A DNA stretch of 64,000 bases from Streptomyces sp. T12 (GTDB lineage Bacteria; Actinomycetota; Actinomycetes; Streptomycetales; Streptomycetaceae), in assembly GCF_028736035.1 (NCBI RefSeq), contig NZ_CP117866.1, positions 9,589,001-9,653,000 of the forward strand, in the 5' to 3' direction. Below, piece after piece: positions 23,192 to 35,909 of the stretch (positions are counted from its first letter, which is position 1; each line of letters begins with the position of its first letter). The notes under the pieces are model-generated. The model was given only the letters and a program-made list of their open reading frames with translations, searched no databases and was not told the DNA's origin. A program made the position numbers and the translations under genes.

Positions 23192-25255
23192 GTGGTGCGG
23201 GAGGAACGGGTCATCGCCGGGCGGTACCGGCTGGGGCAGCGGCTGGGTTCCGGTGGCGGGGGAGATGTCTGGCTGGCCGAGGACGAGGAGCTCCGGGTCC
23301 AGGTCGCCGTCAAGGAGATCGACGTACCGCAGGAGGCGGAGGGAGAGGGCGGTGATCCCGCCGGCCGGGGGCGCAAGGAGGCGCTGAAGGCGGCGCAGCT
23401 GCGCGAGCACCCGAACGTCATCACGGTGTACGACGTGGTGGAGGACGACGACCGCCCGTGGATCGTGATGGAGTACCTGCCGGGCACGCGGGACCTGCGC
23501 GCCGTGGTGACGGAGCGCGGTTCGCTGTCGAGCGCCGAGGTGGCCAGGATCGGCGCGGCCGCACTCGACGCCCTCGGTGCCGGGCACCGGCTCGGCATCA
23601 TCCACCGGGACGTGAAGCCCTCCAACATCCTGCTGGCGCCGGACCATTCCGGCACCGCCGATCGCCGGGTCCTGCTCACGGACTACGGCATCTCGCTGTG
23701 GCCCCGCGAGACCAGGGTCACCCAGAGCGGCATGGTGGTCGGCACCCCGGGCTTCCTGGCGCCGGAGCGGCTGTCCGGCGGCGAGGCGACACCCGCGACC
23801 GACCTGTTCTCGCTCGGTGTCACTCTCTACTTCGCCGTCGAGGGCACCTCCCCGTTCGAACGGGACACGCTCGACGCCTCCCTCATGGCGGCGCTGACCA
23901 CGGAACCCGACGTACCGCAGCGGGCGAGTGGACCGCTGGGCCGCGTGATCATGGGGCTGCTGGCCAAGGATCCGACGGAACGTATACAGGCGGCACAGGC
24001 GCGCGAACTGCTCGCCGAGGCCACGGAAATCGGGCCCGGGTCCCGCAGCCGCAGTGCGCCTGTGCCCTCGCTTCCCGGATCTGGCGGGGCGTCGGCCGGA
24101 TCGGGGGCGGGGGCGGAAGCGGGGGACGGCTCGGTGAGCGACGGGGGCGGGTCGAGGCACTCCTCAGGCTCCGGCGAGCAGCCCGAGGGGTCCCGGCGGG
24201 TCGCCGGCCCGGCCTCTTCCGGTGCCGCCGGTGCCGCAATGGAGTCCGCCCCCTCCGCGCCCTCCTGGAAGGAGCGCCTCACCCCCTCCCGATCCCGACG
24301 CGCCTCGGGCGCTGAACGCCGGGCGGCGTCCGGTCGGCGAACGCTCGTGTTGCTGGCGTTCGCCGTCCTGCCGGCCATGGGCGGGGGGTTCGCGCTGGGC
24401 GCCGCCACGTACCACGACGAGCCAGACGGGATGAAGGATCCGCAGGTCAGCGCGGAGGTGGCCGCCACCCCCTCCCCGACCGTGACGCACGGCGCGTACC
24501 CGTACGGCAGGCAGGTGGGGCTGCGCACCGGGCTCATGCCGGGGCAGTGCGTCGACGCCGACTGGAAGGGCGGGGAGTTCAAGGGGCGGCCCGGGGTGAA
24601 GGCCGTCGACTGCTACGACGGCGATCCCGAGGGCCAGGTCATCGCGACCGTCGGTGCAGACGCGACCGTCGGAGCAGACGCGAGCGTCCCCGCCGACGCG
24701 GCCGACGGCGCCGTATCCGCATCCGGCGCGGCAGCGATACGGGGCGAGTGCGCCCGCCGCACCGCGCAACTGCGCAGGACCATGGCCGACCCGGTGCTGT
24801 ACGTCCTCACACCCGAGGCGGGACAGAGCGAGCCGCCGGCCTCGGCCTGCCTGGTCTTCCTGAAGCACGCCACCCTCGGCGGCCCGCTCGGCGACTTCCG
24901 CAGGCTCGGCGACGAGGTGTACCTCACGCAGCTGGGCCCGGGTGACTGCATCGACGTCGAGGAGGACGAGGACGACTCGTACACCAAGACCCTGGTGAGC
25001 TGCGACAAGCCGCACGACGAGCAGTTGGTCGGCTGGACCCGGGCCTCGGGCGACGGCTCGGCGGACAGCGTCGACACCGGAGAACTCTGCCAGGGCACGT
25101 ACGGCGTCAACTGGGCCCGTGGCCAGGGACACGAGATGTGGGGCTGGTACTCCTCCGACGAGGAGTGGGACGCCGGGTTCCGCCAGGTGCTGTGCAGCGT
25201 GGCCCGGGAGGACGGCGGGAAGCTTCCCGGAGGAGCGCTGAAATCCGCGTACTGA
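23192..25255 (+). CDS. Ser/Thr protein kinase with extracellular sensor domain
   Basis: 687 residues in this version. The Hanks-type kinase domain (about 5-275) has GSGGGGDVW, AVKEI, HRDVKPSNILL and DYG in place of DFG. A Ser/Gly-rich linker, one membrane helix (about 383-405) and a cysteine-containing extracellular domain with QCVDADW and DCIDVEEDEDD follow, similar to septum-formation-type domains. The start is uncertain: GTG 23192 with GAGGGGG at 23180 places the kinase fold at the N-terminus, while GTG 23111 and GTG 22958 are also in frame. Neighbouring FHA protein is a likely partner. Confidence 0.85.
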   Translation: MVREERVIAGRYRLGQRLGSGGGGDVWLAEDEELRVQVAVKEIDVPQEAEGEGGDPAGRGRKEALKAAQLREHPNVITVYDVVEDDDRPWIVMEYLPGTRDLRAVVTERGSLSSAEVARIGAAALDALGAGHRLGIIHRDVKPSNILLAPDHSGTADRRVLLTDYGISLWPRETRVTQSGMVVGTPGFLAPERLSGGEATPATDLFSLGVTLYFAVEGTSPFERDTLDASLMAALTTEPDVPQRASGPLGRVIMGLLAKDPTERIQAAQARELLAEATEIGPGSRSRSAPVPSLPGSGGASAGSGAGAEAGDGSVSDGGGSRHSSGSGEQPEGSRRVAGPASSGAAGAAMESAPSAPSWKERLTPSRSRRASGAERRAASGRRTLVLLAFAVLPAMGGGFALGAATYHDEPDGMKDPQVSAEVAATPSPTVTHGAYPYGRQVGLRTGLMPGQCVDADWKGGEFKGRPGVKAVDCYDGDPEGQVIATVGADATVGADASVPADAADGAVSASGAAAIRGECARRTAQLRRTMADPVLYVLTPEAGQSEPPASACLVFLKHATLGGPLGDFRRLGDEVYLTQLGPGDCIDVEEDEDDSYTKTLVSCDKPHDEQLVGWTRASGDGSADSVDTGELCQGTYGVNWARGQGHEMWGWYSSDEEWDAGFRQVLCSVAREDGGKLPGGALKSAY

Positions 25256-25340
25256 TTGCGCGAAGCCCTCACCTCGTACGGGAGGGGTCCCGCGAGGGGG
25301 TCCGACACTGGTCAGTACGTCGGGCGCCTGCAGGGAAGCT

Positions 25341-25402
25341 GACGAACCGAGAAGCTGCTGAACCGAGAAGCTCACGAACCGAGAAGCTCACGAACCGAGG
25401 AG
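25341..25402. repeat. 16-bp tandem repeats upstream of FHA gene
   Basis: About four copies of acgaaccgagaagctc, the last running into the GAGGAG ribosome-binding site of the FHA gene (start 25410). The array fills much of the 154-bp spacer. Confidence 0.93.
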
Positions 25403-25409
25403 ACCAGCG

Positions 25410-26198
25410 ATGCCCCTCTCCACCAGCCTCGCGCGTGGTGTCGCGCCCACCCCACCCGGGACGCTGCACGCTCGTACGGTCACCGGTGAGCTCAGCGCAC
25501 CGCCCCGCCAGGGGCTGACGGTCCGTTTCGGGCGCGGCGAGAAGCCGGACGTGGACCTGGGGGTCGGCGTGGACGACCTGCGGGTGAGCCGACGGCACGG
25601 CGAGCTGACGTACCGTCAAGGGCTGTGGTGGCTGCGCAACACCGGGCAGCAGCTGGTCCGGCTGCCCCGCGGCCGGATGATGCACCTCGCCACCGAGCCG
25701 ATCCCGCTGACCACCGGGTACACCCCGCTGTTCGTGAAGGGCTCCGGCTACCGTGAGCACCTGGTCGAGCTGTACGTCGCGGGCCACGACGACCAGGGGC
25801 CGGTGTCGCGCCGGCGCGCCGAGACCGTACGGCCGGAGACCTGGTCGCTGGACGACGACGAGCGGCTGTTGCTGGTGGTCCTCGGCCAGCGGTACCTGCT
25901 GTACGAGGAGGACCCCCGCCCCCTGACGTACCGTCAGGCCGCCGAGCGGCTCGCCTACCTCCGCCCGGACACCAAGTGGAACGAGCGCAGGATCGAGTTC
26001 CGCATCGAGGCCGTACGCCGTCGGCTGCACGGCACCGGCTTCAAGTACCCGCTGCTGCACGACAAGTCCGAGGGCCGCCCCGCCGACAACAGTCTGCTGC
26101 ACAACCTGATCAGGGGGCTCGTGGAGTCGACGACCCTCGTACCGCCGGACCTGGAGCTGATGGAGGACGACGAGGCCTGGCCGGACTCCACGCTCTGA
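25410..26198 (+). CDS. FHA domain-containing protein
   Basis: 262 residues with an N-terminal forkhead-associated fold (about 35-110): the key run is FGRGEKPD, then VSRRHGELTY and LRNTG, covering the phosphothreonine-binding Arg, Ser-Arg-x-His and Asn positions. The C-terminal half (WSLDDDERLLLVVLGQRYL, RQAAERLAY, RRIEFRIEAVRRRLH) looks like a winged-helix-type domain. It probably reads phosphorylation by the adjacent Ser/Thr kinases. GAGGAG is 7 bp before the ATG. It is convergent with the next kinase, 21 bp between stops. Confidence 0.85.
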   Translation: MPLSTSLARGVAPTPPGTLHARTVTGELSAPPRQGLTVRFGRGEKPDVDLGVGVDDLRVSRRHGELTYRQGLWWLRNTGQQLVRLPRGRMMHLATEPIPLTTGYTPLFVKGSGYREHLVELYVAGHDDQGPVSRRRAETVRPETWSLDDDERLLLVVLGQRYLLYEEDPRPLTYRQAAERLAYLRPDTKWNERRIEFRIEAVRRRLHGTGFKYPLLHDKSEGRPADNSLLHNLIRGLVESTTLVPPDLELMEDDEAWPDSTL

Positions 26199-26219
26199 GG
26201 GGGCATCAACCCCTCCGCG

Positions 26220-28145
26220 TCATCGCGCGCGGAGCTCGGCGGCGGCGGAAGCGGCGAGGCCCCTGACCATCGTGCAGAGGCTGTCCGTGGGCTGTTGCCC
26301 GCCGACCTCCAGGCGCACCATCTCGGCGGCGGTCTCGGCGTCCTGGCCGCTGTACCTGCGGTACTCGACGAAGGCCGTACAGGTGTCGCCGTCGTCGTTC
26401 GGTTCGACGATCGTGCGGTATCCGCTGAGTGTGACGGCCGTGGCGCCGTCCTCGGCGGACTTGGGCTGGTCGCGGAAGAAGCTCACCTCCGCATCCAGCT
26501 CGTCGACGTCGCTCTGCCACTCGCAGCTCCAGTTCGCGACGCCGACCTTCGGCACGTCGGCCTTGAGGCCGGGAACGGTGGACAGCGCCTTGGCGTCGAG
26601 CAGCTCGCAGGCGTTCGCCCAGGCCAGTGACGTGCGCGGGTAGGCGGGTGAACGGCGGGGCACCGGACCCCGGTTGAGGACCTCGGCCGCGCTCGTGGCG
26701 GCCTTGTCGGCGACCGTGCACAGGGTCGCGTTGCCGCCGACCACGGAGCCCTTGCCCATGTTGACGCGGACCCCGACCAGGGTGTTTTCGGCGTCGCCGT
26801 CGGATGTCAGCAGCAGTCGGCACTCGTCGCTCTCCGCCTGCTCCTCGCGGATGCCGATCCGCCCGACGGTACGGGAGGGCTTCGACCCCTCGGGGGGCGA
26901 GCCCCGCAGGAGACTGACCGACACATCGATCCGGGTCTTGTCGTCGACGCCCACGAGCACGTCGCAGCGGTCGAAGTTCCCGTAGTCCACGTCCACGCGG
27001 ACGTCGTCGCCGAACTGGTCGAGCGCGGCGGGGTCGGTCAGCTCGCACACCTCGGCGGTGTGCGGATCGCCGATCAGGGCCTGCGGTTCGCCGTCCGAGG
27101 CGTTCTCCTCCGCTCGGCTCTGGCCGGGCTCGGGGCCGGTCTTGCCGTCGTCGCCGCGGTCGGGGAGGACGACGAGTCCCAGGGCCAGTACGGCGCTGAT
27201 GCCGAGAGCGGCCGCGATCAGTGGCAGGCGCCGGCGTCGGCGCCCGGTGACGGTGGTGGCCGTGTCCCGGGAGGTTTCCGGGTCGGATCCGGCGACTTCC
27301 GTCAGCAGCCGCCTGACCTCGGCGGCGTCGGGGCGTTGCCGGGGGTCGCGTTGGAGCATGGCGGTCAGGACGGGGTACAGCGGTCCCACGGCGGCGGCGT
27401 CCAGCTCGACGACGCCCTGCTCGGCCTTCCAGTACCTCAGCCGCTCGGCTTCCTCGCCGTCGTCCCCCGTCCCGGCGAGGCCGGCGTCCACCTGAGCGGC
27501 GTCACCGCGCGGCGGGGCACCGGTGACCAGCGCGTGCAGGGTGGCGGCCAGGCAGAACACGTCCGAGGCCGGCCGGGGGACGTTGCCCCGGGCCAGCTCG
27601 GGGGCGGCGTAGTCGGGGGTGAAGCTGAACGGGCCGTTGACGGTGATGGTCTCGGTGCCGCCGACTCGGTAGGCGGCACCGAAGTCCAGTAACTTCGCGG
27701 CCCCGTGCCGGGTGACGCCGATGTTGGCGGGCTTGACGTCGCAGTGGACGATGCCCGCCTCGTGCAGGGCGGCCAGAGCGTTGGCGAGCTGGGCACCGAT
27801 GCGGGCCGCCCGCGCGGGAGAGACCGTCGGCTGCCGGTCCAGGCCGCCGCCGGGCACGTACTCCATGACGAACCAGTAGGTCTGCGGCCCGGCGCCGTCC
27901 TGCCGCACGGTCACGACGTCGAACAGGGTCACCACGTGGGGATGGTCGCGGAACTTGGCCATGGCACGCGGTTCGCCCAGCAGCCGCCGCACCGCGGTCT
28001 CGCCCTCGCCCTCCGTCCGCTCCGGCTTCAGCGCGACGTCCTGGCCCACCACCCTGTCGTGGGCCAGCCAGACGTCGCCGCCCCGCCCCGCGCCGATGAC
28101 CTCCCTGAGGACATAGCGGTCGGCGAACTCCTCCCCGGAACGCAC
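26220..28145 (-). CDS. Ser/Thr protein kinase with HCD motif and DUF3558-like ectodomain
   Basis: 641 residues. Kinase domain (about 10-290) has GAGRGGDVW, DVALK, HCDVKPANIG with Cys for Arg in the usual HRD, and intact LLDFG. A basic run and a membrane helix at about 308-327 follow. The outer part has two similar segments with paired cysteines (AEVCELTDP and NACELLDAKAL), resembling duplicated DUF3558-type lipoprotein domains. Loss of the HRD arginine usually means no activation-loop phosphorylation is needed. Divergent from the alginate lyase with a large palindrome between them. Confidence 0.88.
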   Translation of the reverse strand: MRSGEEFADRYVLREVIGAGRGGDVWLAHDRVVGQDVALKPERTEGEGETAVRRLLGEPRAMAKFRDHPHVVTLFDVVTVRQDGAGPQTYWFVMEYVPGGGLDRQPTVSPARAARIGAQLANALAALHEAGIVHCDVKPANIGVTRHGAAKLLDFGAAYRVGGTETITVNGPFSFTPDYAAPELARGNVPRPASDVFCLAATLHALVTGAPPRGDAAQVDAGLAGTGDDGEEAERLRYWKAEQGVVELDAAAVGPLYPVLTAMLQRDPRQRPDAAEVRRLLTEVAGSDPETSRDTATTVTGRRRRRLPLIAAALGISAVLALGLVVLPDRGDDGKTGPEPGQSRAEENASDGEPQALIGDPHTAEVCELTDPAALDQFGDDVRVDVDYGNFDRCDVLVGVDDKTRIDVSVSLLRGSPPEGSKPSRTVGRIGIREEQAESDECRLLLTSDGDAENTLVGVRVNMGKGSVVGGNATLCTVADKAATSAAEVLNRGPVPRRSPAYPRTSLAWANACELLDAKALSTVPGLKADVPKVGVANWSCEWQSDVDELDAEVSFFRDQPKSAEDGATAVTLSGYRTIVEPNDDGDTCTAFVEYRRYSGQDAETAAEMVRLEVGGQQPTDSLCTMVRGLAASAAAELRAR

Positions 28146-28235: not shown

Positions 28236-28408
28236 GTCTACCCAGAGCCTTCATCAGTCGCACGCATGCGTAGAAGCGGCGGGATCGCGGATTGCCGGAA
28301 GGGGCCCTCGCGGAGTCCGGGAGGGGTCCCGTCAGCGGCGCCTACCGTACGCGTCGCCCCGAACCGCGCGCCCCGAACCGGGCGCCCCCGACAGAGAGGA
28401 AACCCTCC

Positions 28409-29191
28409 ATGCCAGGCACCCGGACCCTCGTGCTGGCCGGCATCACCGCCGCTGTCTCGACCGCCACGTTCACCCTGTCCGCCCACGCCGGCCCTCCGAC
28501 GCCGCACGCGCAGTCGGCCGCCCGGTGCGCGTACCCCGCCGACGTCCTCGACCTGACGGACTGGAAGCTGACGCTGCCCACCGGCGAGGACGAGGACCCC
28601 ACCGAGATCACCCAACCCGAGCTGGCGACCTTCTCCGCCGACCCCTGGTTCCGGGCCGAAGCCGACTGCGACGCGATCCGCTTCCGGGCCGCCGTCAACG
28701 GCGTGACGACGGGAGGTTCCAGCTACCCGCGCGCCGAGCTGCGGGAGATGACCGACGGCGGCGAGGACGAAGCCGCCTGGTCCACCACGGACGGCACCCA
28801 CACCCTGGTGGTCAGGGAGGCGTTCACGGCACTGCCCGCCGAACGGCCGTGGCTGGTCGGCGCGCAGGTCCACGGCGGGGACGACGACGTCACCGTCTTC
28901 CGCCTCGAAGGCAGCAGCCTCTACGTCACCGACGGCGACGACCGCCACCACCACCTCGTCACCGACGACTACGAGCTGGGCACCGAGTTCGAGGCCAGGT
29001 TCGTGGCGAAGGACGGGGAGATCGACGCGTACTACAACGGCCGGCTGCAGACCACGATCTCCCACGACGGCGACACCAACTACTTCAAGGCCGGTGCCTA
29101 CACGCAGGCCAACTGCGACAACTCCGAGCCGTGCGCCGACGACAACTACGGCGAGGTCCGCATCTCCCGCATCAAGGTCACCCACTCCTGA
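28409..29191 (+). CDS. Secreted alginate lyase, polysaccharide lyase family 7
   Basis: 260 residues with a Sec signal peptide (about 1-25, VLAGITAAVSTATFTLSAHA). The three PL7 hallmark motifs are present: RAELREM (catalytic Arg), QVHG (catalytic Gln/His region) and YFKAGAYTQ (catalytic Tyr near the C-terminus). It should cleave alginate or a related polyuronate by beta-elimination outside the cell. QVH rather than QIH often goes with preference for mannuronate-containing blocks. GAGAGGA at 28393 supports the ATG at 28409 over upstream in-frame starts. It is unexpected among kinases. Confidence 0.9.
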   Translation: MPGTRTLVLAGITAAVSTATFTLSAHAGPPTPHAQSAARCAYPADVLDLTDWKLTLPTGEDEDPTEITQPELATFSADPWFRAEADCDAIRFRAAVNGVTTGGSSYPRAELREMTDGGEDEAAWSTTDGTHTLVVREAFTALPAERPWLVGAQVHGGDDDVTVFRLEGSSLYVTDGDDRHHHLVTDDYELGTEFEARFVAKDGEIDAYYNGRLQTTISHDGDTNYFKAGAYTQANCDNSEPCADDNYGEVRISRIKVTHS

Positions 29192-29288: not shown

Positions 29289-30371
29289 ATGACGGGGGAC
29301 ACGACCGGCGCGGAGAGGGCACTGCTGGCCCGCGGACAGCGGATCAACTCGGCGCTGGTCGTGGACCGCAGGCTGGGGGAGGGCGCCTTCGCCGAGGTGT
29401 ACCGGGTACGGCACCACATCCTCGGCTGGCAGGCGCTGAAGCTGTTCAAGCACGTGGCCTCGCTGGCGGCCACCTCCAGGATGTTCGACGAGGCCCGCAT
29501 CCTCTCCACCCTGGGGCACCCCAACATCATCCGGGTGTTCGACGCGGGCACCGTGCAGACCTCCGAGGGGATACGCGGCTACATCACCATGGAGTACGTG
29601 GCGGGCGGCAGCCTGGAGCGGCTGATCGCCTCCCACTCCGGGGCCGTGCCGGTCGGCGAGGCCACGGCCGTGCTGCGGCAGGCCGCCGAAGGGCTCGCCG
29701 TCGCCCATGAACGCCAACACCCCATCGTCCACCGTGACTTGTCGCTGGCCAACGTGCTCATCACCTACGACGAGTCCGGGCTCAGGGTGAAGGTGAGCGA
29801 CTTCGGGCTGGCCAAGGAGACCGACCCGGGCACGATGGCCGCCAGCGCTCAGGGGACGGTCGCCTACATGCCGCCGGAGGTGCTGCGTCGCGGCACGGGC
29901 TACTCGTGCGCCGGGGATGTGTGGGCGCTGGGCACCATCGCGTACTTCCTGCTCACCGACCACTTCCCGTACAACGGCGGCGATCCGGTGCAGTCCTTCT
30001 CCCTGGAGCGCTTCAACCACCCGCTGCCGCCGCCGAGCGCCTACAACGACGACGTGCGGCCCGAACTCGACCGGCTGGTCACGGACATGCTGCGGACCGA
30101 CCCCGCCGGCCGGCCCGCCACGGCACGCGAGGTCGCCGAACGGGCCGAATCCCTGCGGCCCTCGACGGGGGCGCGACCGCCCCGGCACGGGCCGCAGGCC
30201 GTGGAGCGGTCCGTCGAGGAGCTGGTGCGGGCCGCCGTCGCGCTCTCCCGGATGCCGGGACGACTGACCGATGCCGCCAACCAGTTGGAAGAGGCCGTCA
30301 GCCGCCATCCCCGGCTCCGGGAACGGCACATGGCACGGCTGATGACGTGGCGCCGGGGGGTGGTCATGTGA
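29289..30371 (+). CDS. Soluble Ser/Thr protein kinase of chaperone module
   Basis: 360 residues. Kinase motifs are GEGAFAEVY, ALKLF, HRDLSLANVL (about 148-157; Ser for the usual Lys after HRDL) and DFG (about 171-173). No membrane helix is seen. The C-terminal region from about 295 is helical and unassigned. It overlaps the next gene by 4 bp, and together with J-like, GrpE-like, Hsp70 and OmpA-like genes forms one transcription unit. Phosphorylation of a chaperone component is a reasonable inference. Confidence 0.88.
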   Translation: MTGDTTGAERALLARGQRINSALVVDRRLGEGAFAEVYRVRHHILGWQALKLFKHVASLAATSRMFDEARILSTLGHPNIIRVFDAGTVQTSEGIRGYITMEYVAGGSLERLIASHSGAVPVGEATAVLRQAAEGLAVAHERQHPIVHRDLSLANVLITYDESGLRVKVSDFGLAKETDPGTMAASAQGTVAYMPPEVLRRGTGYSCAGDVWALGTIAYFLLTDHFPYNGGDPVQSFSLERFNHPLPPPSAYNDDVRPELDRLVTDMLRTDPAGRPATAREVAERAESLRPSTGARPPRHGPQAVERSVEELVRAAVALSRMPGRLTDAANQLEEAVSRHPRLRERHMARLMTWRRGVVM

Positions 30372-31810
30372 ACGGCCCGACGCACGAGGAACAGACCTAC
30401 GAGCAACGGACCTACGAGCAGCGGGCGTACGGGCACTGGACGTACGGACAGCGGACGTATGGAGAGCGGATGGACAAGACGACTGCGGGTGACCGGACGG
30501 GTGAGCCGTCCGCGGCCCGAAGCGGCGCCGGAAAGCTGTCCCGCTTCGCGGACCTGGCCGGGGTGCGGCTGTACCGCGACAACGCCTTCGCGGTCACCGG
30601 GCTCCCGGCGACCGCGCGAGGACGTGCCGTACGGCAGCACAGACAGCGGTTGGAGGCCCGGCTCGCGGTCGAGGACAGCTGGCCGGGCGACCCGGACTCG
30701 CCGCTCGTGGGCGGGCACCGCAGGGACGAAGTCCGGGCCGCGTTCGAGGAGTTCCAGGATCCGCGAAGGCGGCTGGTCGACGAGCTGCTGTGGCGGTGGG
30801 GCGAGCCCGGCCCGGGGTGCGGCTGCCCTGCGTCCGTGCACGAGGAGCACGACGACGCGGTGCGCTTCCACGCCCTGGCCCTGGAGGCGGAGGCCGGACG
30901 GGGCCACGCCACCACGGAAGGGCGGGACACCCTCTGGCGGGGCGCGGCGAGCGGCTGGGGACTGCTGCTGGAGCGCCCGGAGCTGCGTCGGCACATCGCC
31001 CACCGGATCGCGGAACTGGACGATCCGCGGCTCGGCGCGCACACGGCGGACGACTTCCTCGCCGCGCTTCCCCGCCTGCTCGTCTCCCCGTTCCGGGAAC
31101 TGGCCGCCGATCCGGAGTTCAGGCCGCGGCTCGCCCGGGTCTGCGCGGGCTGGGCGGAACACACCGCCTTCGCCGGGCTCTTCTCCGAACTGTTCGAGGA
31201 GACCGTGGAGGAGACGGTCGAGAAGATCACCGACGGTCTGCGGTCCGCGAGCGAGAAGAAGGACGCCGGGCTGTTCGGGGACGCCGTCCAGGTCGTGCGG
31301 CGGGAGGTCCTCCCCGCGTTCGAACGGCTGGGAGATTTCCGCGCGTTCGTCTCGGACTGGCAGTACGAGGACGTCGCCCACATCGTCGCGGTGGGCGTGG
31401 GCAACCTCGCGGTGGCAATGCTGGGCCACCACCAGCTCAACCGGCCGAGCCCCACCCAGATGAAGACGGTGGTCGAGCTGGCGGAGAAGGCGTACGAGAT
31501 CGCCCCGGAACGCCATGTGAAGGCGTTCAAGGACAACTGGGACGTCATCTACGAGTGGTCCACCCGGACGGTCCCCCTGGGCGCGGCTCCGGGGGAGCCG
31601 GCGCAGAGCCTCACCGGCCTTGAATGGGTGGGGTGTTGGCTGATCGCCCTCGGGCTCGTCGGGCTGATCGTGCTGTGGACGATCGAGGGGTGGGAGGTCG
31701 CCTGGGGTGTCTTCCTGGTCCTGTGCGCGGTCGCCGGCGGCTTCCAGAAGCTCTCGGAATGGCAGGTGCGGTTCCGGGCGCACAGGGCCAGAAGGAGGTT
31801 CCACCGGTGA
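30368..31810 (+). CDS. J-like membrane protein of Hsp70 module
   Basis: 480 residues from GTG 30368, whose GTGA overlaps the kinase stop. Residues 7-36 are six pentapeptide-type repeats (TYEQR-like) encoded by 15-bp DNA repeats. Residues of about 70-150 (NAFAVTGLPATARGRAVRQH, FQDPRRRLVDELLWRW) look like a J-domain-type helical bundle found beside bacterial Hsp70s, but no HPD tripeptide is present. A helical middle region follows, and two membrane helices lie near the C-terminus (GCWLIALGLVGLIVLW, AWGVFLVLCAVAGGF). ATG 30470 is an alternative start with GGAGAG. Role: membrane-anchored Hsp70 co-chaperone, inferred. Confidence 0.75.
   Translation: MNGPTHEEQTYEQRTYEQRAYGHWTYGQRTYGERMDKTTAGDRTGEPSAARSGAGKLSRFADLAGVRLYRDNAFAVTGLPATARGRAVRQHRQRLEARLAVEDSWPGDPDSPLVGGHRRDEVRAAFEEFQDPRRRLVDELLWRWGEPGPGCGCPASVHEEHDDAVRFHALALEAEAGRGHATTEGRDTLWRGAASGWGLLLERPELRRHIAHRIAELDDPRLGAHTADDFLAALPRLLVSPFRELAADPEFRPRLARVCAGWAEHTAFAGLFSELFEETVEETVEKITDGLRSASEKKDAGLFGDAVQVVRREVLPAFERLGDFRAFVSDWQYEDVAHIVAVGVGNLAVAMLGHHQLNRPSPTQMKTVVELAEKAYEIAPERHVKAFKDNWDVIYEWSTRTVPLGAAPGEPAQSLTGLEWVGCWLIALGLVGLIVLWTIEGWEVAWGVFLVLCAVAGGFQKLSEWQVRFRAHRARRRFHR
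30386..30475. repeat. Six 15-bp tandem repeats at gene start
   Basis: Units such as gagcaacggacctac run from 30386 to 30475, keeping frame and encoding a five-residue repeat at the very start of the J-like protein. Confidence 0.9.
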
Positions 31811-32331
31811 CATTCCGAATCCGGGGGCGAGCGCACGAAGTACGTTCCTCGCTCGGCCAGTTGAAGCATCCACCCGAGTTCCGTATCCCCCGCCCGCTGC
31901 TGGCGCCCGACCAGGCCGACTGGGCCGCGGCCGTGCTCGCCGAGGTCGAGGCCGCAAAAGCCCTGGCACAGCGGCCCGGCGCCGGGACGGACGCGCTGCT
32001 CGGGGCCGCCATCGGTATCTGGCGCGCCCTGCGCAAGCTCGAGCAGGGAACCGGCCCGCTCTCGGCGGCCGACCTGCGGCAGGTGCGCCGCCAGGTCCAC
32101 GCGAGCCGCCAGGCGCTCGTCGACGACGGGCTGGAGATCCAGGAACACGACGGCATGCCCTTCGACTCCGGCCAGTCCTTGGAGGCCCTGGTGTTCCAGG
32201 ACGAGCCGGGACTGGACCGCGAGATCGTGCTGGAGACCGTACGGCCGTCGGTCTACTTCCGCGGCGAGCGGATCCAGATGGGCCAGGTCATCGTCGGCAG
32301 GCCCGCCCCCGAGCAGGCGCCCGGAACGTGA
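31807..32331 (+). CDS. GrpE-like nucleotide exchange factor of Hsp70 module
   Basis: 174 residues from GTG 31807 (GTGA overlap with the J-like stop). A helical N-terminal part is followed by a compact beta-type end: DGMPFDSGQSLEALVF, then VRPSVYFRGERIQMGQVIVGRP. This mirrors the C-terminal beta domain of GrpE (G-x-x-FDP, HEAV, then GRVLRPAxV). It would exchange ADP for ATP on the Hsp70 encoded next. Similarity is by pattern, not by search, and the long GrpE coiled coil is not obvious. The frame is open upstream, but the upstream part is out of frame with the coupled start. Confidence 0.62.
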   Translation: MTFRIRGRAHEVRSSLGQLKHPPEFRIPRPLLAPDQADWAAAVLAEVEAAKALAQRPGAGTDALLGAAIGIWRALRKLEQGTGPLSAADLRQVRRQVHASRQALVDDGLEIQEHDGMPFDSGQSLEALVFQDEPGLDREIVLETVRPSVYFRGERIQMGQVIVGRPAPEQAPGT

Positions 32332-32348
32332 CGACCAAGGAGACCACC

Positions 32349-34847
32349 ATGCGCGAGACCATCGACTTCGGAATCGACCTCGGCACCACCAACAGCGCCA
32401 TCGCGGTGGCGGAGGACGACGGCGTACGCGTCATCAAGAACAACGACGGCTGGGACTTCACGCCCTCCGCCGTGTGGATCCCCAAGGAGGGGGTGATCCA
32501 CGTGGGCAGGCGGGCCCGGGAGCGCACGGAGAGCGATCCGGACAACGCCTACGCCGAGTTCAAGCTGGAGATGGGGGCGGCCGGCGCCCAGCGGCTCTTC
32601 GAGCGCGCGGGCACTTCGCTCACGCCCGAGGAGCTCTCCGCCGAGGTGCTCAAGTCCCTGCGTCAGGACGCCGCGCACGAGTACGGCCACCAGCCGGAGG
32701 CGGCCGTGATCACCGTGCCGGCCTCCTTCGCCCTGAACCAGAACAACGCGACCAGCTCGGCCGCCGCCCTCGCCGGGCTCGGCGAGCACTGCCCGCTGGT
32801 GCAGGAGCCGACCGCCGCCGCGATCGCCTACGGCGTGCAGGACGCCTCCGACTCCGCCCACTGGATGGTGTTCGACCTGGGCGGCGGCACCTTCGACGCG
32901 GCCCTGATGAGCAAGCGGGACGGCGAGCTGCAACTGCTCCAGCACGCGGGCGACCCGGGCCTGGGAGGAAAGTTCATCGACTGGGCCCTGGTCGACGACC
33001 TGCTGGCCCCCGCGGTCCGGCGGGACCTGGGCCTGGCGGACTTCGCCCGGAACAACCGCCGCTGGCGCAAGAACATCGCCAAGCTCAAGCTGGAGGCGGA
33101 GAACGCCAAGATCGCGCTGTCCCGCACCAGTTCGGTCGAGATCTCCGTCGACCTGGACGACGGCAGCGGCGGCATCGAGCCCTTCGAGTACGTCCTGACC
33201 CGCGGCGCCCTGGACGACCTGGCGCTGCCGTTCTACACCCGCGCCATCCGGCTCTGCCGCGACGCGCTGGCCGAGAGCTCTCTGCGCCCCGACCACGTCG
33301 ACCGGCTGCTCCTGGTCGGCGGGGCGACCCTCAGCCCAGGGCTGCGCGAGCTTCTCGCCGACCCGGTCGAAGGGCCCGGTATGCCTCTCGACCACAGCCA
33401 GGACCCCACCACCGTGGTCGCGCGCGGCGCTGCCGTGTTCGCCCGCACGATCAGGCTGCCGAAGAAGCCGCAGAAGGCGGCGCCCGGCGAGTTCGCGATC
33501 GAACTCCACTATCCGCCGCAGTCCGTGGACACCACCGGCATCCCCGTCTCCGGCAAGGTCAGCAGCGGCAGCACCGTGGACTGGACGCGGTACACCGTCA
33601 CCCTGAGCAACCCCAACGGCCGCCCGCCCTTCCGCGGCCCGCGCACCGAACTCGGCGCGGACGGCACCTTCTACACCGAGGTGGCCATCGATGCCGACAC
33701 CAGGTCCCGCTTCACCGTGGAGCTCACCGACACCTCCGGCACCCGGCGGAACCTGGCCGGAGACTCCTTCTCCATCACCCACGCGGCCGTCGTCCCCGGC
33801 GACGCGGTGCTCACCGGCACCCTCGGCATCGGCAAGGCCGACGGCACCTTCGACCCGCTGCTGCGCAAGGGCACCACGCTGCCGGCCCAGGTGACCAAGC
33901 CGTACCGGACGACCATCCCGCTGCGCCGCACCCAGCCGGACGCCGTCATCCGCATCCCCCTGCTGGAGGGAGAGCGCAGGCGCGCCGACCGCAACAGCAG
34001 GGTCGGGCTCATCGAGATCCGCCCGCGCGACATCCGCATCGACCTGCCCGCCCAGAGCGAGGTCGAGGTGACGTTCGAGATCCAGGCGAGCAACCGCGAG
34101 GTCCTCGTCACTGCCGACATCCCCCTGCTGGAGCAGCAGTTCGAGGCGACGATCAACCGCTCCGAGCTGCTGGCACCCGAACACGACGAACTCGTGGACC
34201 GTCTGCACGACCTGGAAGAGCGGGTACGTATTCTGCAGGACCAGGCCGAGGACGTGTTCTCGGACCAGGCACGGGCGCAGTTGGAGGACCTCTCGGAGCA
34301 GCGGACCATCCCCCAGCTCCGCAAGGAGGTGGACGCGGCGGCCGTCGACACGGGCGCCGCCGTCACCAGCGATCGCCGCATCCGCGATGTGCAGGCCCAG
34401 CTCGACGACATCGAGGAGGCGATCGAGATCCCGGGGCTGCAACGCGAGTTGTGGGATCTGCTCAGTGCCTGTGAGGACGTCGTCGAGCAGGTCGGGGGCG
34501 GCCCGTCGGACCGGCGGGAGCTGCAGAACATGCGCGACCGCGCCCGATCACTCGGGGACGACGCCACCCCGGCGGACCTGCGGCGGCTCATCAAGCGGGC
34601 GGGGGAGTTCCACATCGAGCTGCTGCGCCGTACCGACCAGTGGGAGTACGTGGTCTTCCACGCGCTGGTCGAGATGCGCGACGAGATGTTCTCCCGCGCA
34701 CAGGCGGACGCCGCGATCCTGGAGGGCCGGCGGGCCGTCGCCGCGGGCAACCGCCGGGCCCTCGCCGGCGTCAACGAGCGGCTGCGCCGACTGCTGCCGC
34801 CGGGGGCCGCGGACGAGGCCGAGCGGATGTCCGGCGGAATCAACTAG
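32349..34847 (+). CDS. Divergent Hsp70/DnaK-like chaperone with extra beta domain
   Basis: 832 residues, about 200 more than DnaK. The ATPase domain is clear: GIDLGTTNS (8-16), VPASF, EPTAAAIAYG, FDLGGGTFD (175-183) and LLVGGA (near 322). An inserted Ig-like beta region of about 100 residues (about 378-478; PVSGKVSSGS, RYTVTLSNPNG) separates it from a substrate-binding beta domain recognised by LRKGTTLPAQ, which matches the DnaK run before its loop. A long helical, coiled-coil lid ends the protein. ATG 32349 has AAGGAG 6 bp upstream; GTG 32328 overlapping the previous stop is an alternative. Confidence 0.9.
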   Translation: MRETIDFGIDLGTTNSAIAVAEDDGVRVIKNNDGWDFTPSAVWIPKEGVIHVGRRARERTESDPDNAYAEFKLEMGAAGAQRLFERAGTSLTPEELSAEVLKSLRQDAAHEYGHQPEAAVITVPASFALNQNNATSSAAALAGLGEHCPLVQEPTAAAIAYGVQDASDSAHWMVFDLGGGTFDAALMSKRDGELQLLQHAGDPGLGGKFIDWALVDDLLAPAVRRDLGLADFARNNRRWRKNIAKLKLEAENAKIALSRTSSVEISVDLDDGSGGIEPFEYVLTRGALDDLALPFYTRAIRLCRDALAESSLRPDHVDRLLLVGGATLSPGLRELLADPVEGPGMPLDHSQDPTTVVARGAAVFARTIRLPKKPQKAAPGEFAIELHYPPQSVDTTGIPVSGKVSSGSTVDWTRYTVTLSNPNGRPPFRGPRTELGADGTFYTEVAIDADTRSRFTVELTDTSGTRRNLAGDSFSITHAAVVPGDAVLTGTLGIGKADGTFDPLLRKGTTLPAQVTKPYRTTIPLRRTQPDAVIRIPLLEGERRRADRNSRVGLIEIRPRDIRIDLPAQSEVEVTFEIQASNREVLVTADIPLLEQQFEATINRSELLAPEHDELVDRLHDLEERVRILQDQAEDVFSDQARAQLEDLSEQRTIPQLRKEVDAAAVDTGAAVTSDRRIRDVQAQLDDIEEAIEIPGLQRELWDLLSACEDVVEQVGGGPSDRRELQNMRDRARSLGDDATPADLRRLIKRAGEFHIELLRRTDQWEYVVFHALVEMRDEMFSRAQADAAILEGRRAVAAGNRRALAGVNERLRRLLPPGAADEAERMSGGIN

Positions 34848-34870
34848 CCGGCGGATCAACCAGTCGGCGC
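34839..34870. repeat. 16-bp duplication over Hsp70 stop codon
   Basis: atcaactagccggcgg followed by atcaaccagtcggcgc; the first copy contains the TAG stop (34845-34847). Confidence 0.8.
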
Positions 34871-34886
34871 AGACGAGGAGTTGACG

Positions 34887-35909
34887 GTGCCCACATCCCA
34901 CATCCCGACGGGCGGCACAGGACCGGTGGAGACGGAATCCAGTGGTACGGCGTCCGCCGCCGACTCGCTCCGGGTCCAACTGCTCGTTTCGCGGGCCCGC
35001 GCGGCGGCCCGCTCCGGTGACCTGGACGGCGCCCTGCGGCTGCTGCACGACGGCGAAGATCCCGGCGCCGCCGGTCGTCCGGACGTACTCGACCTGCTCG
35101 CCCGGGTCCACGCCCAGCGAGGCGAGCTGGCCCAGGCGGCGGCGTGCTGGCGGAGAATCCAGGAGCGGGACCCCGAGGATCCGGCCGCGATGGCCGGGCT
35201 GGCGAGGATCGACCGGCTCGGCCGACGCGGCGCGCGGGCGGGGCTCGCCCGGCGCCGCGGTCGTACGGCACTGGCCGCCGCGGTCTGTGCGGTGGCCGCG
35301 ATCACGGCGGGCACGGTCGCCCTCACGGACGGCCCCGCCGGGCGGCCGCAGCGGCCAGGCCCCTCGCGGGCCGACCTGGCGGAGCAACGTGCCCGGCAAC
35401 TCGACGCCGAACACAGGGCGGAGGAGGCACGGGAACGCGCCGATGAGACGGCCCGCCGAGCGGAGGCGGCCGAGGCGCTGGCCCGCGCGCTGCGGGCACC
35501 GGGCATACACCCGGCGGTGCAAGGGGCTTCCGTGGAGGTCGTCTTCGCCGACGGGCTCTTCTCCGAGGGCGCCGAGCTGACCCCGCTCGGCGCCGATCGG
35601 CTGGCTGTGCTCGGCGGACGCCTGGCCGGGCGAAAGGTGAGCGTCGAGATCTACGGCCAGGCCGCCACCGTGCCCGGCGCCCCGCGCAGCGGCGGCTCCG
35701 TCCTCTCCCTGTGGCGCGCACTCATCGCAGCCCGGGAGCTGAGCGCCGCCGGCGGCAAGCCCCTCACCGCCTTCACCACGGCCAGCGCGGACCAGCGTGA
35801 CGCGCCGTACGCGAGTGCCGCGAAGAACCGGACGGTCACGGTGGTGGTCACGCCCGGTCAGTCGATCCTTCGCTCAGCGGGTGACTCAGCGGGTGCCCTC
35901 AGCAGGTGA
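34887..35909 (+). CDS. Membrane protein with TPR-like, coiled-coil and OmpA-like domains
   Basis: 340 residues. A TPR-like helical part (about 30-105; SGDLDGALRLLHDG, QAAACWRRIQERDPEDPAAM), one membrane helix (about 130-148, ALAAAVCAVAAITAGTVAL), a charged coiled coil (about 160-205) and a C-terminal OmpA/MotB-type fold (VVFADGLFSEGAELTPLG, VEIYGQA, NRTVTVVV). Peptidoglycan or cell-wall anchoring is suggested. GTG 34887 is 6 bp after GAGGAG; TTG 34881 is possible. It ends the Hsp70 operon and converges on the permease gene with stops 2 bp apart. Confidence 0.75.
   Translation: MPTSHIPTGGTGPVETESSGTASAADSLRVQLLVSRARAAARSGDLDGALRLLHDGEDPGAAGRPDVLDLLARVHAQRGELAQAAACWRRIQERDPEDPAAMAGLARIDRLGRRGARAGLARRRGRTALAAAVCAVAAITAGTVALTDGPAGRPQRPGPSRADLAEQRARQLDAEHRAEEARERADETARRAEAAEALARALRAPGIHPAVQGASVEVVFADGLFSEGAELTPLGADRLAVLGGRLAGRKVSVEIYGQAATVPGAPRSGGSVLSLWRALIAARELSAAGGKPLTAFTTASADQRDAPYASAAKNRTVTVVVTPGQSILRSAGDSAGALSR

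Follow-up and report, generated by a model that had tools for sequence, protein, structure and literature searches.

A kinase-associated Hsp70 operon of Streptomyces and other actinobacteria, possibly an accessory envelope signalling module

The DNA analysed here, hereafter the window, is a stretch of 64,000 nucleotides from Streptomyces sp. T12 (contig NZ_CP117866.1, positions 9,589,001 to 9,653,000). Between positions 29289 and 35909 it carries five colinear open reading frames (ORFs) on the + strand, in the order kinase, J-like, GrpE-like, Hsp70 and TPR/OmpA-like, all present and in one direction as a first-pass annotation had listed them. This gene order recurs far beyond chance, in one acidobacterium as well as in numerous genera of actinobacteria. 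We propose, with about even confidence, that the operon represents an accessory envelope signalling module in which a specialised Hsp70 would be an ATP-driven switch, as opposed to a general folding machine. The FHA regulators, the frequent kinase and PP2C, which is present now and then, are components of signalling, and we consider the switch likelier than a housekeeping or single-client chaperone. The genes and domains concerned are the following.

29289..30371, + strand: module Ser/Thr kinase, 360 aa, soluble (Pkinase, E 4.2e-45)
30368..31810, + strand: J-like membrane protein, 480 aa, with an N-terminal J-like domain without HPD, a middle part of uncharacterised type and a hydrophobic C-terminus
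30542..30841, + strand: J-like domain (residues 59-158), as aligned in set A6
31628..31684, + strand: hydrophobic membrane stretch of the J-like protein (residues 421-439), from the hydropathy scan
31807..32331, + strand: GrpE-like protein, putative nucleotide-exchange-factor homologue, 174 aa, from profile comparison
32349..34847, + strand: noncanonical Hsp70, 832 aa (HSP70, PF00012, E 3.1e-73)
32724..32726, + strand: codon of Ser126, equivalent to DnaK Tyr145 (alignment of 38 members)
32793..32795, + strand: codon of Pro149, at the position of DnaK Arg167, with which the Asp of HPD makes contact (alignment of 38 members)
33483..33800, + strand: inserted domain of about 106 residues (379-484) between the ATPase and substrate-binding domains, perhaps Ig-like
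33801..34196, + strand: substrate-binding beta domain, from a profile compared with DnaK structures of this domain
34881..35909, + strand: protein with TPRs, one membrane helix and an OmpA-like part; likeliest start GTG 34887

The Hsp70 was compared with its relatives in an alignment of 38 members, the window included (A3). The ATPase residues equivalent to K70, E171 and T199 and the Asp of the DLGGG motif were kept in 38/38 members. A profile of 25 members (A10) matched chains of the DnaK substrate-binding domain (SBD) in the Protein Data Bank (PDB) with a best E of 4e-11, which identified the SBD-beta. The equivalent of Arg167 was Pro in 38/38 members. A wider count covered 80 rows, from which L038 (no motif), the non-module Hsp70s of L087 and L088 and the second Hsp70s of L036 and L038 were set apart; the remaining 75 module rows with the motif showed 74 Pro, one Thr and no Arg. 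This position was Asp in L087 and L088 and Glu in the second Hsp70s of L036 and L038, and it was Arg in 24/24 canonical Hsp70 loci with the motif (26 looked at). The Tyr145 equivalent was Ala in 31 and Ser in 7 of the 38 members, and the Arg151 equivalent was Asn in 27, Cys in 8, Thr in 2 and Ser in 1. The VLLLD linker, carried by the DnaK of the same genome, was absent before the SBD: a pattern of four hydrophobic residues followed by Asp was seen between residues 351 and 510 in two of the 38, both times inside the insert. Counterparts of the insert could be aligned in the Hsp70s of L050 and L053 and in the second Hsp70 of L036, where it is a CarboxypepD_reg domain. A weak Big_6 (Ig) match of the insert was found in 5/36 sequences (E up to 1, best 0.0084).

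The Pfam scan of the window was significant for the kinase, the Hsp70 and the TPRs. The best Pfam E values of the J-like and GrpE-like proteins were insignificant (0.1 and 0.044, respectively), and neither had an NCBIfam or PADLOC match. Both were also compared at the level of families. The alignment of 34 J-like domains (A6) was compared by hhalign with 15 canonical J-domains from the same genome and from relatives (A5), with a probability of 66.9 and an E of 5.3e-5; in searches of the PDB, the J-like profile placed the J-domains of DnaJ first (best E 0.0062). For the GrpE-like family, 30 relatives (A1) against 15 canonical GrpE of the same origin (A4) gave a probability of 88.4 and an E of 2.8e-6 over 70 columns. 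The crossed controls of the two comparisons gave probabilities of 0.3 and 0.3. Single GrpE-like members matched PF01025 in 11/30 cases (E up to 1, best 4.1e-4), the window copy not among them, and by sequence profile the family corresponds to the GrpE beta-wing. The two relationships put forward in the first-pass annotation thus gained support: the J-like protein appears related to the J-domain family, and the GrpE-like protein is a putative exchange-factor homologue. The absence of the HPD motif was confirmed as well, the motif being found in 0/65 J-like domains (15 further rows without the anchor motif were left out). As for the two membrane helices that had been attributed to the J-like protein, the hydropathy scan gave one peak in the window (residues 421-439) and two in several relatives; a second hydrophobic stretch after residues 421-439 was seen by eye. 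Septum_form, which we count with OmpA among the recurrent extracellular sensor domains of the module, was detected on 8/39 J-like proteins (E up to 1, best 6.8e-17).

In DnaK, the Asp of HPD contacts R167 and the His of HPD contacts L391 in the linker (PMC8215388, PMC13012618), the role of R167 as a J-domain contact being also covered in PMC7289447. In the prevailing view, the standard Hsp70 cycle relies on these contacts between HPD, Arg167 and the linker. Judging from the alignments, both sides of the usual J trigger, HPD on one partner and Arg167 with the linker on the other, are lost together in the module. Because all three are gone, the step normally triggered by the J-domain should not proceed in the ordinary way, and the full alternative Hsp70 cycle described in the first-pass annotation is doubtful. 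A raised basal ATPase is predicted because Tyr145 is replaced with Ala or Ser: DnaK Y145A has a higher ATPase with or without DnaJ (PMC13012618).

The TPR/OmpA-like protein probably provides an attachment of the core to the envelope. TPR_2 was recognised in 33/34 aligned TPR proteins (E up to 1) and OmpA (PF00691) in 16/34 (E up to 1, best 6.5e-11); in the window protein, TPR matches alone were obtained. One transmembrane (TM) peak was present in the window protein and in 43/54 called rows of the family. The membrane and wall attachment announced by the first-pass annotation is thus retained as a prediction, drawn on the wall side from the relatives. The core would be membrane-tethered and is probably also wall-tethered.

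The genes had been described as mostly overlapping by 4 bp. This is correct at the kinase/J-like and J-like/GrpE-like junctions, and could apply to at most three of the four, a little short of what 'mostly' conveys. The GrpE-like and Hsp70 genes overlap only if the Hsp70 starts at GTG 32328. A gap of 17 nt is likelier, because ATG 32349 is preceded by an AAGGAG site at 6 nt and corresponds to where the gene was called to begin in the majority of aligned relatives. There is no overlap between the Hsp70 and TPR genes, the likeliest start of the latter being GTG 34887 (GAGGAG 6 nt upstream; alternative 34881).

Sixty-nine public loci were fetched with the GrpE-like profile, and a few rows correspond to the same contigs as the public loci. 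Among the latter is L013, from the type strain S. coeruleorubidus ATCC 13740. Genes were called with a simple script, which missed the TPR/OmpA gene in five Amycolatopsis loci and the kinase of L062, and counts from six-frame profiles were added. The gene calls gave 65 loci with a GrpE-like gene, the window counted (none was called in L050, L053, L057, L073 and L074). The Hsp70 gene was next to the GrpE-like gene in 64/65, the remaining locus ending at a contig end. The J-like gene lay upstream in 63/65 and after the TPR gene in the other two; the TPR gene followed the Hsp70 in 51/65, and a kinase was part of the block in 38/65. By six-frame profiles, the GrpE-like protein was present in all 69 public loci, the J-like protein in 66 (not L035, L050 and L074), the Hsp70 insert in 66 (not L009, L034 and L074) and the TPR/OmpA protein in 62 (not L009, L017, L024, L034, L035, L043 and L053), six of these seven gaps falling at contig ends. 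The module kinase reached at least 200 bits in 40/69 loci and 155 bits in L073; none of 150 bits was found in 28. Since the kinase is found in 40/69 against 62-69 for the others, the core consists of four genes (J-like, GrpE-like, Hsp70, TPR/OmpA). It is this core which stays together in other genomes, and the kinase accompanies it in part of them. In L073, a 997-aa ORF was considered as a GrpE-Hsp70 fusion and rejected: the C-terminal part of the GrpE-like stretch resembles a copy read out of frame, which makes a broken gene or a sequencing error likelier. A Candidatus Frankia contig (L074:8977-9117) showed GrpE-like (48 bits) and TPR/OmpA (60 bits) remnants close together, with no J-like or Hsp70-insert match between or around them, and looks like a decayed module. 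L050, a metagenome-assembled genome labelled Bacteroidetes (a label that may be a binning error), had J-like, GrpE-like, Hsp70 and TPR/OmpA genes followed by a Clp_N protein.

The kinase of the window showed no membrane peak in the hydropathy scan. The catalytic K/E/HRD/N/DFG residues were invariant in 28/28 aligned module kinases, which are thus of the Hanks type. The catalytic loop of the window kinase reads HRDLSLAN; the fifth residue (HRDxK) is Ser and not the Lys found in most Ser/Thr kinases. Ser or Thr occupied this position in 27/30 readable module kinases and Lys in three (L053, L059, L065), which suggests a loss of the loop Lys inside the clade. Gene calls provided 41 module kinases (L053 added), of which 40 entered a tree together with 25 neighbouring and 21 own-genome kinases. 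The 40 module kinases were all on one side of one branch (100/100; one change; 0/500 shuffles as low). The clade spans Streptomyces, Nocardia, Amycolatopsis, Pseudofrankia and Edaphobacter, thus including an acidobacterial member, and the position of the gene in the operon varies, either before the J-like or before the GrpE-like gene. In a survey of 32 Streptomyces genomes, with up to 64 candidates scored per genome, a strong match (522-592 bits) was obtained in 10 of the 11 genomes with strong core hits and in 0/21 others (G266, whose core hit is weak, and 20 genomes with none); the next-best kinase match anywhere in the 32 genomes was 169 bits. The remaining genome, G270, had the core and no strong module kinase. 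To all appearance, the kinase lineage is dedicated to the module, being found only with it in the 32 genomes searched, which upholds the link between kinase and Hsp70 genes drawn in the first-pass annotation. Its further statement that the Hsp70 system is placed under a kinase is unproven, given the 28/69 loci without a 150-bit match; the recurrent FHA regulators suggest that the kinase may instead be an output of the module. These findings also bear on the view that a paralogous Hsp70 operon simply came to lie beside a kinase by chance, with no shared function. The same 28 loci would fit such a loose neighbourhood, but the kinases are a single clade across five genera at different operon positions, and their lineage is absent from 21/21 searched genomes without a strong module hit; we regard this explanation as very improbable.

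Signalling genes were found around the core. An FHA and OmpR-type winged-helix regulator (cluster c5) was present in 16 loci and a PP2C (cluster c36) in 4, and most of these c5 FHA and PP2C genes overlap or adjoin the kinase. The clusters were read by Pfam in L040 only (FHA 2e-8; Trans_reg_C 1.6e-4, below the cut-off; PP2C_2 3.9e-13). In the window, the first-pass annotation had missed an upstream extension at 23192-28145, with two membrane kinases and an FHA protein.

23192..25255, + strand: membrane Ser/Thr kinase of the extended module (Pkinase 1.8e-42), with a weak Septum_form match after the TM helix (E 0.0024, below the cut-off)
25410..26198, + strand: FHA-domain protein of the extended module, 262 aa (FHA, E 1.8e-4), cluster C6
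26220..28145, - strand: membrane Ser/Thr kinase of the extended module (Pkinase 4.9e-36), with a DUF3558-like part after the TM helix (1.1e-5, below the cut-off)

Septum_form E values in orthologues of the first kinase were 0.19, 0.0035 and 0.0012, and a kinase of the same neighbourhood in L055 matched DUF3558 with 1.7e-13. Cluster C6 comprised 15 genes in 14 loci, the window counted, located before or after the core; it is kept near the module in Streptomyces, and in two loci of Nocardia it is the immediate neighbour of the module kinase. An Alginate_lyase2 gene (1.2e-40) at 28292-29191, between these kinases and the module, was kept in 7 loci, the window counted. In the Edaphobacter locus L053 (Acidobacteriota) the order was kinase, receiver-domain/J-related protein, J-like, GrpE-like, Hsp70 and FHA; the second of these (L053:6502-7443) combines a response-regulator receiver domain and a part resembling the J-like protein in one ORF. 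A second, different Hsp70 module stands beside the first on the opposite strand in L036 (212-8092, - strand) and in the same stretch of L038. It encodes an AAA+ protein with a Clp_N-like part, a kinase, a TPR-like protein, a 116-aa J-like protein, a GrpE-sized protein and an 849-aa Hsp70, which has the CarboxypepD_reg insert and the Glu mentioned above; the J-like and GrpE-like labels were here assigned by eye.

A Pfam survey examined 87 hand-chosen neighbours of the 226 listed. They contained 143 Pfam families, and the 25 commonest were inspected. No constant client gene and no GTPase (GAP1-N2/TRAFAC), vWA or tubulin was found among these 25. Regulators were frequent among the 87 neighbours, with Trans_reg_C in 12, BTAD in 9 and NB-ARC in 7 (for example L042:2827-5826 and L044:3720-6722), a combination of the AfsR/SARP type.

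These observations allow a comparison with a chaperone dedicated to the folding or assembly of envelope clients. The J-like protein would then deliver one or a few membrane or wall proteins through changed but working contacts, and the kinase would merely tune the machine by phosphorylating the J-like protein, the GrpE-like protein or the Hsp70. Intact ATPase residues, a substrate domain of DnaK type, the attachment to membrane and OmpA and the existence of cores without a 150-bit kinase all speak for it, and an altered J partner can act as a suppressor: DnaJ D35N suppresses the defect of DnaK R167A, a variant which is otherwise non-functional (PMC13012618). Against this stand the loss of the HPD, Arg167 and linker contacts, the lack of a constant client gene among the families inspected, and the FHA-winged-helix, PP2C and receiver-domain proteins, which are parts of signalling systems. 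Such a chaperone is possible, and we give it distinctly less credence than the signalling switch.

The module is rare. With the own genome counted in every sample, the GrpE-like protein was detected in 12/295 Streptomyces genomes (11 strong), in 9/296 genomes of the class sample and in 5/396 of the phylum sample, in which the own genome was the only strong one. The Hsp70 insert was found in 11/295 Streptomyces genomes, the same 11 that had a strong GrpE-like match, with 13 copies of each. The weak GrpE-like matches of G266 (E 4.9e-9), which has no Hsp70 insert, and of four genomes of another family (2.9e-5 to 8.5e-4) were not counted as modules. In the tree, the kinases of Streptomyces L034, L035 and L047 grouped with those of Amycolatopsis L026 and L033 (97/89) and were separate from the remaining 14 rows of Streptomyces, an indication of inter-genus transfer. 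The module is patchy and has probably been passed between genera. The GrpE-like protein had no match on plasmids, phages or viral contigs; on the viral contigs, 37 stretches fitted a pattern and 0 encoded a relative.

A patchy distribution in multicellular actinobacteria with signs of inter-genus transfer would fit a system of biological conflict or immunity of the kind treated by Kaur et al. 2020 (PMC7159879), here with a chaperone-gated activation of the kinase. Conflict neighbourhoods with Hsp70, GrpE and DnaJ are described in that paper, and the window kinase matches the defence kinase models mad6 and PD-T4-6. Any Hanks kinase would, however, be expected to give such matches. Neither an effector nor a toxin gene was noticed, the published GTPase, tubulin and vWA partners are absent from the 25 commonest neighbour families, and the GrpE-like protein is unmatched on mobile elements of the types searched. 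A defence island was considered and rejected as well: PADLOC (E up to 1e-10) gave four families among the 87 chosen neighbours, with one or two members each. We consider a conflict system unlikely.

Returning to the signalling switch, we propose the following sequence of events. The J-like receptor and the TPR/OmpA protein would keep the Hsp70 bound to the membrane and sense the condition of the wall. The Hsp70 would turn over ATP without the HPD trigger, and the GrpE-like factor would reset its clock. The balance of free and client-bound Hsp70 would gate the module kinase, which would phosphorylate the FHA regulator or a J-like or TPR partner. The FHA protein would then read the phosphorylated target and change transcription, and PP2C, where present, would erase the phosphorylation. 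The logic would be that of BiP gating IRE1 and PERK, transposed to the inner face of the bacterial membrane. This precise version, with a J-like receptor devoid of HPD and a TPR/OmpA protein that binds the wall setting the state of a constitutively turning-over Hsp70, which itself gates the kinase and an FHA transcription factor, is offered more tentatively than the signalling role as such, and we lean somewhat against its being right in every part.

Several observations weigh against the proposed switch. Which of the two, kinase or Hsp70, acts on the other is a guess. The module can do without the kinase: 28/69 public loci lack a 150-bit match (one of them, L015, ends shortly upstream), and both G047 and G183 contain the core twice, with one strong kinase match each among those listed. 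PP2C is scarce. The kinase tree has long branches (own_L168 and the L036/L038 kinases versus the module clade), and the composition of L053 is odd. The J-like homology relies on the profile probability of 66.9 and the PDB profile E of 0.0062, and the Pfam scan of the J-like proteins found no extracellular sensor domain in the window's copy. The fold of the insert is unsure, with a best E of 0.076 in the PDB profile search. The conserved ATPase residues and substrate domain would also fit a real chaperone, and a cycle independent of J is not proven by the paired losses, since the D35N suppression indicates that partners which changed together may work.

If the proposed switch is correct, the module would be an independently evolved prokaryotic counterpart of the chaperone-gated stress kinases, and a natural case of an Hsp70 working without HPD, Arg167 and the VLLLD linker. 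Both contact sides being lost in a conserved Hsp70 family and in its partners, the module offers a direct natural test of the role of these contacts. A gating of the kinase by the Hsp70 would establish chaperone-gated kinase signalling in bacteria. The make-up of the module suggests that some bacteria may use a chaperone within a stress-signalling device and not just for folding. The Hsp70 insert, the GrpE-like protein and the kinase clade form a recognisable marker set for finding such systems.

The first-pass annotation knew of no described function for such a module in Streptomyces. No paper on this kinase-Hsp70 operon was found in the literature searched, most subscription journals and all bioRxiv preprints lying outside the search; the module extends beyond Streptomyces, and a related theme is in print. 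Of the papers searched, Kaur et al. 2020 (PMC7159879) alone mentions Hsp70, GrpE, PP2C and FHA together. It associates Hsp70 and GrpE with DnaJ-FNIII or TPR in GTPase-centred systems, and presents kinase, PP2C and vWA as a separate theme. The GAP1-N2 GTPase systems described there resemble the module in combining Hsp70, GrpE and J or TPR proteins in multicellular actinobacteria, with membrane and wall-binding domains. They differ in that the module kinase sits in the Hsp70 operon, and in their GTPase, vWA and tubulin components, which are missing from the 25 commonest neighbour families of the module. CsdK1 and CsdK2, the PilZ-DnaK proteins of Myxococcus (PMC10313047), are likewise Hsp70 paralogues tied to a signal pathway, through a c-di-GMP receptor domain; they are PilZ fusions, and the accessible text mentions no linked kinase, membrane J-like protein or OmpA partner. 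The word kinase is absent from the main text of a 2021 review of bacterial Hsp70 machines (PMC8215388).

With the canonical DnaK-DnaJ-GrpE system of the same genome (C1:5819741-5822484), the module shares the ATPase residues, the SBD-beta, partners related to J-domains and GrpE, and adjacent genes. It is distinguished by the lack of HPD, the changes of Arg167 to Pro and of Tyr145 to Ala or Ser, the lack of VLLLD before the SBD, the insert of about 106 residues, the membrane-bound J-like protein, the OmpA/TPR partner and the dedicated kinase. In the eukaryotic unfolded-protein response, BiP gates the kinases IRE1 and PERK. The likeness to the module lies in the proposed logic, Hsp70 occupancy gating a kinase, and no homology is claimed; the bacterial kinase is soluble and the compartments differ. 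Actinobacteria also possess pairs of a Hanks-type sensor kinase and an FHA reader, in which the kinase gene is adjacent to that of the FHA protein and a PP2C acts as eraser. Compared with these pairs, the module would represent a similar arrangement to which a dedicated Hsp70 core has been added.

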